From: a virus
Length of the DNA stretch: 64,000 bases
Strand: one strand, 5' to 3'
Virus record (IMG/VR): IMGVR_UViG_3300048839_000196
Location: 1 to 64,000 of that record
The translations under genes were made by a program, and so were the position numbers. Of this stretch, positions 42,925 through 51,357 are shown one piece after another (the first letter of the stretch is position 1; each line of letters opens with the position of its first letter). The notes under the pieces are model-generated. The model saw nothing but the letters and a program-made list of their open reading frames with translations. It was not told the DNA's origin and ran no database searches.

Positions 42925-43146
42925 TTACTGCGCGTATCGCTCCATCTCTTTGTGGATTACTGCACTTGGGTATTCATACACGGCATGCTGGTATTCAAGG
43001 CTAGCCAGCAAGTCTTCGTATGACTTTTCATCCTCGATGACCGCTCGCGGCAATTCGTCGTGGTCAATGACCACGACTCGTGAGGATTCGGAGGTAATCA
43101 CATTCTGTACAATTCCTCCCTCTACAATAATGATTATGGTATTCAT
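42925..43146 (-). CDS. Hypothetical protein (73 aa)
   Basis: Starts with a beta-alpha pattern (MNTIIIIVEGGIVQNVITSE, VVVIDHDELP), a start common to many small phage accessory proteins. Helical C-terminus. The A-rich leader CAAAAACAAAACCAC precedes the ATG. Function unknown. Confidence 0.55.
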   Translation of the reverse strand: MNTIIIIVEGGIVQNVITSESSRVVVIDHDELPRAVIEDEKSYEDLLASLEYQHAVYEYPSAVIHKEMERYAQ

Positions 43147-43165
43147 GTGGTTTTGTTTTTACAAT

Positions 43166-43411
43166 TCAAAACTTTGGCATTGGCCGGAAGGCCATGTCGA
43201 TGAAAACGATCTGTATATCCCATCCAGTTTTTTGTTTCGTGTATTCCAGCATTCTTTCTGGTATCTGAATGTTTTTATTGCATTGGGCCGTGTCATTGAA
43301 GAAAATTGCCTGCTTCTCATCTCCATCCTTACAGAGCCAGTACACTTCTCGAACTACAACCCAGCCTTGCTTGGGGTTGGTAACGTCAATGGTATTATAT
43401 CCTTTATTCAT
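43166..43411 (-). CDS. Hypothetical protein (81 aa)
   Basis: Starts MNKGYNTIDVTNPKQGWVVV; contains FNDTAQCNKNIQIPERMLEY and a hydrophobic C-terminal strand (DIQIVFIDMAF). No motif recognised. Member of the same accessory operon. Confidence 0.5.
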   Translation of the reverse strand: MNKGYNTIDVTNPKQGWVVVREVYWLCKDGDEKQAIFFNDTAQCNKNIQIPERMLEYTKQKTGWDIQIVFIDMAFRPMPKF

Positions 43412-44192: not shown

Positions 44193-44223
44193 CAAAGGTA
44201 TTAAACTTTATCTGAATTGTCAA
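44193..44223 (-). promoter_or_regulatory. Bacteroidota-type promoter for the 40-44 kb accessory operon
   Basis: Minus strand: TTG (44223-44221), 20 bp, TACCTTTG (44200-44193), about 22 bases from the ATG at 44171. Confidence 0.78.
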
Positions 44224-44272
44224 GTGTTTTGTGATATTTTTTTTTGAAATTTAATTTATCTATGTTAAATTT

Positions 44273-44408
44273 TAGCCCGGCAGGTGGGATTCAAACCCAC
44301 AACCCAGCCTTATTTTGCGCCGCTAAGCGCAACTTCTAGCCGGTTTTTTAGAGCAGCTTGGCCTTCGCCACTCATCATCGCGTCTGCGCAGTTTCCGCCA
44401 CTGCCGGG
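44273..44408 (-). ncRNA. Expanded tRNA-like RNA 1 (136 nt)
   Basis: On the minus strand the ends form a perfect acceptor-like stem, CCCGGCAG with CTGCCGGG (8 bp). A tRNA-Leu-like D region (TGGCGGAAACTGCGCAGACGC) follows the 5' strand, and a T-arm (GTGGG-TTTGAAT-CCCAC) directly precedes the 3' strand. Between them lie about 75 bases, far more than a tRNA needs, including hairpins AGCTG/CGGCT and TTGCGC/GCGCAA. The 3' end reads G-CTA instead of CCA. No normal anticodon arm can be drawn, so it is either a degenerate or intron-bearing class II tRNA or a distinct tRNA-mimicking RNA. Confidence 0.55.
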
Positions 44409-44414
44409 TATTTC

Positions 44415-44642
44415 TTACATCCAGCCCTGATCTACGATCTTAGGTTTGTTGTCTATGATTCGCCATACTTCCCGCCATTCGCCCCATTGGCCGCGGCGCT
44501 TGCGGAAAATCACCGCCTCGCTGTTTGCAGATGCGTCAATCATTCGCCGCACTGCCTTTAAAGCAGCCTTGTAATTTTTAAAGCATTCCCATACATGCGA
44601 TCCTTTATCTTCGATCCAAATAGTTGGCCCGTTATGTTTCAT
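44415..44642 (-). CDS. Hypothetical protein (75 aa)
   Basis: Begins MKHNGPTIWIEDKGSHVWEC and is basic in the middle (RKRRGQWGEWREVWRIID). Its stop lies seven bases before the tRNA-like RNA. Start overlaps the upstream stop by four bases. No family recognised. Confidence 0.5.
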   Translation of the reverse strand: MKHNGPTIWIEDKGSHVWECFKNYKAALKAVRRMIDASANSEAVIFRKRRGQWGEWREVWRIIDNKPKIVDQGWM

Positions 44643-44959
44643 GGTAAGTTGTTTTTGATTTTTGTCCTGTAATTTTTGCGGTCAAACTCAGTGGCCACAT
44701 AAGCAGCTATGCACTGCGTCCTGAACTCCTGATCATTTTTCTTGGCCAAGTTTTGAAGTAAATGCTTGCTCCTGATAGCCAGAAAACCACTTCCAGTTGC
44801 ATTTGAGCAAAGCCTAACTAGCGCTAGGTTAATAATAAACCTCATTCGCTTAGGCAGGATGGGTACTTTTTCAAATAAGGAGCTGTAACGATCCATAGCG
44901 CAGGCGGTAGGGGTTTTTGAACGCGTTGGTGTATTACGGTCTGGTTTTTTGTTATACAT
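44639..44959 (-). CDS. Hypothetical protein (106 aa)
   Basis: Basic, helical protein (PILPKRMRFIINLALVRLCS, RSKHLLQNLAKK) with two Cys in the second half. No motif recognised. Overlaps the gene at 44415 by ATGA and lies 12 bases downstream of the gene at 44972. Confidence 0.5.
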   Translation of the reverse strand: MYNKKPDRNTPTRSKTPTACAMDRYSSLFEKVPILPKRMRFIINLALVRLCSNATGSGFLAIRSKHLLQNLAKKNDQEFRTQCIAAYVATEFDRKNYRTKIKNNLP

Positions 44960-44971
44960 GGCAGGTTCTTT

Positions 44972-45235
44972 TTAAAGTCCATAATAATTTAAAGCATTCT
45001 CCAGCGTTCCTTTTGTTCCGGGCTGTAATTCCGACCTTGCTGGAATGTAGTTTCTGTAGTAATCGCGTGTTGGTTTGTCTGGCAGCCAGCAAGCGCCAGA
45101 CGTCAGGGCGACCATAGCTGCACGGCCCATTGATCCTTCAAATTTCCAGATTTCGCCGCTGTTAATAAGGCTTTGCATTTGGTCGTTTCCGGCTGCCTTT
45201 TGAGCCTTAATAAGCGCTTTAGTTGGGTTTTTCAT
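44972..45235 (-). CDS. Hypothetical protein (87 aa)
   Basis: N-terminal helix (MKNPTKALIKAQKAAGNDQM) followed by a mixed region (GRAAMVALTSGACWLPDKPT). Charged and soluble. No recognisable family. Part of the unit read from the promoter at 46278. Confidence 0.5.
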   Translation of the reverse strand: MKNPTKALIKAQKAAGNDQMQSLINSGEIWKFEGSMGRAAMVALTSGACWLPDKPTRDYYRNYIPARSELQPGTKGTLENALNYYGL

Positions 45236-45246
45236 GTTAGTAACCT

Positions 45247-45798
45247 TTACTTGCTGTGAATAAATATCCTGTCTAATGGATTTCTGTTTTGAACTCTTTT
45301 AATGTGTTCAAACATCCAGTCTGAAGGAGGGGCCGCGCATTCGTTCGCCACTAACAGCTTTAGCATGTCGTCGGCTGCCTTATTAAGCGCGTAGTCTTTA
45401 AAATCCATCTCCAAATCTTTGCATACACGCGCAAACTTTCCATAAATCTTATTTATTTTTGGCCCGCAATTTTCACGGGCAAATCTCCATTGGGATTGAC
45501 TAGTCTTGCGATTATTTTTTACCCATGCTACAATATTTTCAAATTCGTTTTTTGCGTCAGGCTCATTGTCAAGCCACATAAAGAATTGATCTATAATATA
45601 GTAAGGTTGACCAGTATAGTTGAAGGCATTGCATATCCTTATTTCCCTTTCGGGGTAAAAGTACGCATTCCAACTGCCATTCTTTAGGTTTTGCTTATGA
45701 AATTCGCACAACCCTTCGCGAAGGGTTAAACAATCGCCGTAATTTCCAATAAAGATAGCCGTATTATTTGACAGCACAAAATAAATATCTTCTTTCAT
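45247..45798 (-). CDS. Hypothetical protein (183 aa)
   Basis: Start placed at ATG 45798 (MKEDIYFVLSNNTAIFIGNY); codons upstream to 45828 would overlap the tRNA-like RNA. Aromatic-rich, mixed fold (WNAYFYPEREIRICNAFNYT) with four Cys. No family recognised. Confidence 0.55.
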   Translation of the reverse strand: MKEDIYFVLSNNTAIFIGNYGDCLTLREGLCEFHKQNLKNGSWNAYFYPEREIRICNAFNYTGQPYYIIDQFFMWLDNEPDAKNEFENIVAWVKNNRKTSQSQWRFARENCGPKINKIYGKFARVCKDLEMDFKDYALNKAADDMLKLLVANECAAPPSDWMFEHIKRVQNRNPLDRIFIHSK

Positions 45799-45818
45799 GG
45801 ATTTTGTTTTTAATGCTT

Positions 45819-45947
45819 TAGCCCCCACCGGACGGCTCGAACGTCCTAAGTTTTTCCCGCAAGACTTACTTTATCTGATACGCTTCCAACGCTTTCCTCC
45901 GAAAGCCTCGCAGTACTCAACTATCTTGCCCTGTTGCAATGGTGGGG
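45819..45947 (-). ncRNA. Expanded tRNA-like RNA 2 (129 nt)
   Basis: Minus strand: acceptor-like stem CCCCACC/GGTGGGG (7 bp, perfect), a D-like hairpin TTGC-AACAGG-GCAA right after the 5' strand, and a canonical T-arm GGACG-TTCGAGC-CGTCC just before the 3' strand. The middle contains GATA/TATC enclosing a GCTTTC/GAAAGC hairpin, then a variable-arm-like hairpin TAAGT...ACTTA. As in RNA 1 the 3' end is G followed by CTAAA. It fills the gap between two genes without overlapping either (45798 and 45960). Confidence 0.55.
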
Positions 45948-45959
45948 TAAGGGATGGTA

Positions 45960-46256
45960 TTATTTAACGTCTGTCAAGCTTCCATCCCACTTTTGGCCGT
46001 TCAGATACAATTTACCGCGTTTTTGCCATACCGAAACGCCGGGGATGCCATTCAGGCGGTCTCTAGTTGTTACAGTATTCCAGTATGCCGTTGTTACTGT
46101 CAGAGTCCTTTCAGGATCATTGTAACGATATGCAATTTCATTCCCATGTAACTTGAGGATTGTTACGTTTGGCAGTACTTCCACAGAAGTATTGGAAGAC
46201 CGGAATTTTTTGCCGTTCATAAAAGCGTCAATTGCTTGTCTTGTTACTTTTCTCAT
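45960..46256 (-). CDS. Conserved small phage protein (98 aa)
   Basis: The order SSNTSVEVLPNVTILKLHGN followed by TTAYWNTVTTRDRLNGIPGV and YLNGQKWDG belongs to a small-protein family repeatedly found in accessory regions of phages (LHGN-x-I, TTRDRLN, W-x-x-G). Function unknown. It has its own promoter at 46278-46308. Confidence 0.7.
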   Translation of the reverse strand: MRKVTRQAIDAFMNGKKFRSSNTSVEVLPNVTILKLHGNEIAYRYNDPERTLTVTTAYWNTVTTRDRLNGIPGVSVWQKRGKLYLNGQKWDGSLTDVK

Positions 46257-46277: not shown

Positions 46278-46308
46278 TAAAGATACGAAAATTTATCTAA
46301 CTTGTCAA
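46278..46308 (-). promoter_or_regulatory. Bacteroidota-type promoter (variant -7)
   Basis: Minus strand: TTG (46308-46306), 20 bp, TATCTTTA (46285-46278). The last base of the -7 element differs from the usual G. The upstream TTG overlaps the end of the inverted repeat at 46307-46343. Confidence 0.65.
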
Positions 46309-47416: not shown

Positions 47417-47447
47417 CAAAGGTAAAACAATTTACCTAATTTGTCAA
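47417..47447 (-). promoter_or_regulatory. Bacteroidota-type promoter
   Basis: Minus strand: TTG (47447-47445), 20 bp, TACCTTTG (47424-47417). Drives the 249- and 93-residue genes. Confidence 0.78.
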
Positions 47448-51288: not shown

Positions 51289-51357
51289 GGCCCGCAGCCG
51301 GAATCGAACCGGACTCTGGGAGCGACCCAGCTATGCTACCATTACACCACTGCGAGC
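51289..51357 (-). tRNA. Compact tRNA, anticodon probably CGC (Ala)
   Basis: 69 nt on the minus strand, seven bases from the Met tRNA. Acceptor GCTCGCA/TGCGGGC, D-arm with TAATGGTA loop, T-arm CCGG-TTCGATT-CCGG. Anticodon arm GCTGG-GTCGCTC-CCAGA gives CGC with an unusual T at position 37. The variable region is only one to two bases, shorter than normal, so identity and function are less certain. Confidence 0.6.

Follow-up and report, generated by a model that had tools for sequence, protein, structure and literature searches.

The DNA analysed here (the window) covers 64 kb of a virus record that is 73.9 kb long. Its terminase and portal proteins are 18-29% identical to those of phages of Flavobacterium, Cellulophaga, Tenacibaculum and Maribacter, assigned to Elemovirus, Pachyviridae and Pervagoviridae, and one window protein matches the crAss muzzle family; the source is a crAss-related Bacteroidota podovirus. 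On the minus strand, within a single stretch of small co-oriented genes, lie two intergenic RNAs with tRNA ends, RNA A (131 nt) and RNA B (125 nt), each between ORFs on the coding strand, with the upstream flanking ORF ~6-25 nt away (Table 1). The flanking genes encode small proteins of unknown function, a Kyano_Gp96 family protein and a DUF932 protein. Near-identical promoter-like repeats (TTGACAA...TAnCTTT) occur here and elsewhere in the window, which holds five matches compared with 1.1 in shuffled sequences, and these repeats probably mark early transcription units. Between the copy at 46279-46308 and that at 44194-44223 the order is a gene at 45960-46256, RNA B, small genes and, last, RNA A, so that A and B are probably carried on one transcript.

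Both RNAs have a perfect 7-bp acceptor stem and a perfect 5-bp T-arm with the TTYRANY loop of canonical tRNAs, together with a D-like hairpin placed as in a tRNA; neither contains a 7-nt anticodon loop. The acceptor stem of A (C-CCGGCAG / CTGCCGG-G) has an eighth base pair if C44408 pairs with the discriminator G, and G-CTAAA directly follows the 3' strand in both A and B. The original prediction had described two tRNA-like RNAs with perfect acceptor and T-arms and no normal anticodon arm, and sequence, pattern scanning and folding agree with it; the G-CTAAA ends and the placement in intergenic gaps on the transcribed strand are likewise borne out by the sequence and the ORF positions.

Table 1. 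Positions in the window of RNAs A and B, their parts, and the associated promoter-like and tRNA-like elements.
Feature	Position	Strand	Basis or remark
RNA A, whole (131 nt)	44277-44407	-	
RNA A 5' acceptor strand (C)CCGGCAG	44401-44408	-	perfect pairing with 44276-44283
RNA A D-like hairpin GCGG-AAA-CTGC	44388-44398	-	MFE and centroid
RNA A hairpin at anticodon-arm position, 7-bp stem, 9-nt loop GAAGGCCAA	44351-44373	-	MFE and centroid
RNA A long hairpin at variable-arm position, 13 bp with 5x5 internal loop, after TAAAAAA	44304-44343	-	MFE and centroid
RNA A T-arm GTGGG-TTTGAAT-CCCAC	44284-44300	-	5-bp stem perfect, tRNA-type loop
RNA A 3' acceptor strand CTGCCGG and discriminator G	44276-44283	-	sequence and scan
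CTAAA directly after RNA A	44271-44275	-	sequence; compare N-CTAA of related phages
RNA B, whole (125 nt)	45823-45947	-	
RNA B 5' acceptor strand CCCCACC	45941-45947	-	sequence and scan
RNA B D-like hairpin TTGC-AACAGG-GCAA	45926-45939	-	sequence and fold
RNA B possible middle hairpin with GCTTTC-GGAG-GAAAGC	45879-45915	-	by eye; not in MFE
RNA B possible variable-arm-like hairpin TAAGT-(12 nt)-ACTTA	45847-45868	-	by eye; not in MFE
RNA B T-arm GGACG-TTCGAGC-CGTCC	45830-45846	-	sequence and scan
RNA B 3' acceptor strand GGTGGGG and discriminator G	45822-45829	-	sequence and scan
CTAAA directly after RNA B	45817-45821	-	sequence; compare N-CTAA of related phages
Promoter-like TTGACA-(17)-TATCTTT, upstream of the gene set with B then A	46279-46308	-	near-copies elsewhere
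Promoter-like copy, ~50 nt downstream of RNA A, before DUF932 gene	44194-44223	-	near-copy of 46279-46308
Promoter-like near-copy	47418-47447	-	near-identical repeat
Promoter-like near-copy	53973	+	near-identical repeat
Odd tRNA, anticodon stem CTGGG/CCCAG closed by 5 nt (TCGCT)	51290-51357	-	tRNA ends

A scan of the 64 kb for the perfect acceptor and T-arm pattern returned A, B and two matches inside coding sequence, compared with 0.03 matches per shuffled window. In 2.5 Mb of phage DNA, 21 matches of at least 90 nt were found (13 intergenic), against two in the reversed sequence (none intergenic), a ratio that is indicative, as the set was partly picked through T-loops some matches overlap ordinary tRNA genes and one match is a T4 RNA C homologue; the reversed-sequence control is unaffected by this choice. 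Ends of this form arise by chance only very rarely, and the tRNA-like ends of A and B are secure.

Neither RNA is a recognizable tRNA or tmRNA. ARAGORN made no call in A or B in its default, anticodon-intron (0-3000) or tmRNA modes, and with lowered thresholds only did it return forced and dissimilar 'introns' of 49 and 45 nt; Rfam gave no match in either RNA even at E<=10 apart from unrelated chance matches. No anticodon arm with a 5-bp stem and a 7-nt loop containing U33 is present, and removal of an anticodon-loop insert (ARAGORN -i0,3000) does not restore a cloverleaf. The canonical cloverleaf that would contradict the original prediction was thus sought in both spans with ARAGORN and Rfam and not found, and the intron-mode, tmRNA-mode and Rfam searches proposed with it were negative for both RNAs. 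A and B resemble tmRNAs in combining tRNA-like ends with a large insert; however, the true tmRNAs of phages phi38:1 and Calle were detected separately, whereas A and B gave no ARAGORN call, matched no tmRNA model and showed no tag reading frame, and a tmRNA identity was rejected. A reading of A as an amber-suppressor tRNA through TCTAAAA was also rejected, as no anticodon stem surrounds this sequence. The tmRNA calls of ARAGORN in related phages lie in NC_062744 (Calle_1, ~42950-43309) and NC_021796 (phi38:1), with the tag AQIEANMEAVNAILNLEVAVGV, and in Maribacter phage Panino.

The enlarged middles differ in how well their structure is predicted. Whole-molecule folding gave z-scores of -2.5 for A and -2.6 for B, and the middles alone gave -1.6 and -1.4. 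For A the MFE and centroid structures nearly agree, and the predicted order of parts is acceptor stem, D-like hairpin, a hairpin with a 9-nt loop flanked by linkers on both sides, the linker TAAAAAA, the 13-bp hairpin and the T-arm. The ensemble of B is diffuse, and its possible middle hairpin competes with a long-range fold. By these predictions the middle of A is reasonably defined and that of B has no well-defined fold. Comparison with 166 phage tRNAs placed the D-arm stretch of A closest to a tRNA-Leu D-arm (TGGCGGAA...AGACGCG), by a small margin, with tRNA-Cys second. A search for antisense pairing between the loops of A or B and phage start regions found nothing notable.

The 3' tail, which the original prediction had noted as differing from CCA, turned out to be commonplace. 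N-CTAA follows the ordinary CCA-less tRNA genes and the tmRNAs of related phages, so the tail of A and B is the local tRNA 3' flank, and CTAAA was rejected as a special 3' mark. The shared flank suggests that A and B may undergo ordinary tRNA 3' processing.

Close relatives were sought through the DUF932 gene, the terminase (its alignment being too divergent for use in a scan), an exact T-arm/acceptor pattern and genome contigs, and none was found, nor was any homologue of A or B; the predicted middles consequently rest on single sequences. RNAs of a similar kind are present in other Bacteroidota phages: odd intergenic tRNA-ended RNAs occur in four related lineages, Calle/phi38:1/phi40:1, Gundel_1, Panino and MW202828. 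In the Cellulophaga phages phi38:1, phi40:1 and Calle, an unannotated 139-nt RNA that ARAGORN misses lies between genes of a gene run, in Calle and phi38:1 directly upstream of the RtcB gene. The Calle RNA shares with A the succession of acceptor stem, D arm, a hairpin with the 9-nt loop GAAGNNCAA, an A-rich linker, a long hairpin and the T-arm, but is otherwise unrelated in sequence and differs in its RtcB neighbour, an acceptor stem that starts with U-A and a discriminator A. The Calle and phi38:1 copies differ at nine positions, eight of which lie in loops or keep the pairing and one of which breaks a pair; among the pairing-neutral differences one pair is changed on both sides, and this pair of sequences alone gives no significant covariation score (261 of 500 shuffles scored as high). 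The loop form GAAGNNCAA is common to the Calle/phi38:1 RNA and the anticodon-position hairpin of A, a match that is suggestive, simple counting putting it at about 1 in 1000 for one comparison.

Tenacibaculum phage Gundel_1 encodes an RNA of about 109-110 nt annotated as tRNA-Tyr (M1M25_gt001), which is intergenic and has a perfect acceptor stem and T-arm, an N-CTAAA tail and the same D-loop, AACAGG, as B; it differs in being shorter than A and B, in containing a second T-arm-like hairpin and in its annotation. Maribacter phage Panino has a 91-nt tRNA-ended RNA, and MW202828 a 107-nt RNA with an enlarged anticodon loop that the Rfam tRNA model accepts (47 bits). A scan of IMG/VR with the motif GAAGNNCAA plus a T-arm gave 38 matches, the architecture being present only in phi38:1 and Calle, and 158 IMG/VR loci adjoining an RtcB gene or the Gundel SSB gene yielded only self-matches and one further locus, L125, so that this kind of tRNA-ended RNA appears to be rare and fast-changing. 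The L125 RNA (L125:3131-3245, IMGVR_UViG_3300010218_000007) is called by ARAGORN in intron mode as tRNA-Leu(tag) with a 36-nt intron, and its contig also encodes RtcB, with a permuted tmRNA and a tRNA-Asn nearby. Another locus, L074:2870-2979 (minus strand), holds a 110-nt Leu-like tRNA whose ~19-nt anticodon loop, with AAAGTACAC, is reminiscent of the Calle loop.

The closest counterpart of A and B is in phage T4. Stable RNA C (species 1 RNA, rnaC) is annotated at NC_000866 70908-71046 and spans 136 nt between its acceptor ends, with a tRNA T-arm adjoining the acceptor-like 3' strand. T4 RNAC and RNAD are expressed late and were checked by Northern blot, their function being unknown as of 2022, and RNAC is known to build up in infected cells as a discrete stable RNA (PMC9697503). 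In an alignment of RNA C from six T4-like phages, 91.5% of cells are paired and 23 of 49 pairs are changed on both sides, compared with 7.2 in shuffles, and this covariation supports the fold. The acceptor stem pairs fully in Yersinia phage fHe-Yen9-01 and contains two U-U mismatches in the other five. Like A, RNA C has a large middle hairpin, an A-rich linker and, before the T-arm, a further hairpin (10 bp), in the same order, and like A and B it is of similar length, has no anticodon and has no Rfam match. Unlike them, it lacks a D-arm, carries acceptor mismatches in most relatives and sits in a tRNA gene cluster. A and B have the features that define this kind, namely a T-arm beside an end-joining acceptor-like stem, a large middle that is not an anticodon arm and a length of 110-140 nt. 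Outside the tRNA-like parts no sequence similarity of RNA C to A or B was found, and among A, B and the Gundel, Calle and T4 RNAs similarity is confined to these parts and one loop. The resemblance is one of kind, with a similar order of parts, as distinct from demonstrated descent, and the common layout could reflect convergence.

The explanation that we favour, with middling confidence, is that A and B are tRNA-ended, stable small RNAs of the RNA C kind, which tRNA enzymes process out of a single early transcript and which serve as tRNA decoys. The acceptor/T-arm half of a tRNA is the part recognised by RNase P, tRNase Z, the CCA-adding enzyme and EF-Tu. As this half is complete in A and B, they should be released and kept like tRNAs, whereas decoding is precluded by the enlarged middle, which has no anticodon loop. 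We infer transcription, processing, stability and a decoy role on this basis. A and B would be transcribed in one early gene set from the promoter-like site at 46.3 kb, with B after the first gene and A at the end; host RNase P, tRNase Z and CCA-adding enzyme would recognise the acceptor/T-arm half, and the RNAs would be cut out and stabilised like tRNAs. By mimicking tRNA they would then most likely occupy a host tRNA-binding protein, for example an enzyme of tRNA-cutting defence, of repair or of surveillance. Such a role would fit the RtcB neighbour of the Calle RNA, the short anticodon-less tRNA at 51290-51357, and the suggestion that the tRNA-like domain of YrlA is a competitive inhibitor of an anticodon nuclease (PMC7790460). 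The RtcB gene is absent from the record of the window phage, and the RtcB link of the Calle/phi38:1 RNA is thus not general.

Of the two readings originally put forward, intron-bearing or degraded class II tRNAs and a new class of tRNA-mimicking phage RNA, the second is closer, but the kind is not wholly new, given the similar RNAs in other Bacteroidota phages and the order of parts in T4 RNA C. The class II reading keeps some support, above all for A, and is the main rival: A and B would be class II tRNAs, A deriving from tRNA-Leu, with insertions in the anticodon and variable arms, and would be pseudogenes in decay or else genes whose short introns are removed by some enzyme. We consider this possible though rather unlikely. 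The best match of the A D-arm is tRNA-Leu, other phages have Leu-like tRNAs with enlarged anticodon loops (MW202828, L074 and L125), and the window phage itself has another tRNA with a 5-nt anticodon loop; against this, the intron mode of ARAGORN is empty for A and B at normal thresholds, no 5-bp stem and 7-nt anticodon loop assembles around one insertion, the acceptor and T-arms are perfect, unlike those of decaying genes, a search for group I introns gave no match, and the window phage is without RtcB. A and B might alternatively be cut sites at which RNase P and tRNase Z cleave the polycistronic phage mRNA between genes, so that only the ends matter. Their complete acceptor/T halves and their position in one run of co-oriented small genes close to the upstream ORFs would suit such a role, which we nevertheless judge improbable, since a short tRNA-like element would suffice and the 13-bp hairpin of A, together with the Calle hairpin with its one double-sided pair change, suggests that the middle is kept too.

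A very improbable reading makes A and B phage counterparts of the bacterial Y RNAs, tRNA mimics encoded beside RtcB that work with the Ro60 protein. YrlA resembles them as a non-decoding tRNA mimic that is RtcB-linked in some bacteria, the Salmonella Y RNAs being encoded in the rtcBA operon (PMC7790460), and the Calle/phi38:1 RNA adjoins RtcB; however, no Ro60/TROVE gene (PF05731) was found in the window phage or seven relatives, with a control genome positive, and A, B and the Calle RNA do not match the Rfam YrlA model. The least credible reading is that A and B are chance inverted repeats in coding-dense DNA. The two further perfect end-pattern matches inside coding sequence and the weak z-scores of the middles alone point that way, whereas two intergenic coding-strand matches in 64 kb stand against none in 2.5 Mb of reversed sequence, and both A and B have a D-like hairpin where a tRNA would carry it, as well as the 3' flank of local tRNA genes.

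A and B extend a neglected, T4 RNA C-like kind of RNA to unrelated phages. If tRNA-ended, anticodon-less RNAs recur in unrelated phages, one of them next to a gene for an RNA ligase, a function for the kind is probable, and its recurrence would make a comparative study possible. Standard annotation overlooks such RNAs or labels them as odd tRNAs, as with the 110-nt 'tRNA-Tyr' of Gundel_1. More speculatively, and in our view with a low probability, such RNAs could be widespread and overlooked among unrelated phages (T4-like phages, Pervagoviridae, Pachyviridae and the crAss-related window phage), acting as tRNA decoys or as RtcB repair partners against host tRNA-cutting defences, with RNA C as the first known.

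Three of the four tRNA-like genes in the window are without a normal anticodon loop. The gene at 51290-51357, which ARAGORN misses, adjoins a tRNA-Met gene and scores 22.3 bits with the Rfam tRNA-Sec model, below the cut-off. A tRNA nested in a tRNA was observed at another IMG/VR locus (L042, IMGVR_UViG_2602041664_000003; minus strand, ~183 nt), where another tRNA-like unit, which has a D-arm and a T-arm of its own, occupies the anticodon-loop position of a tRNA-Leu-like gene.
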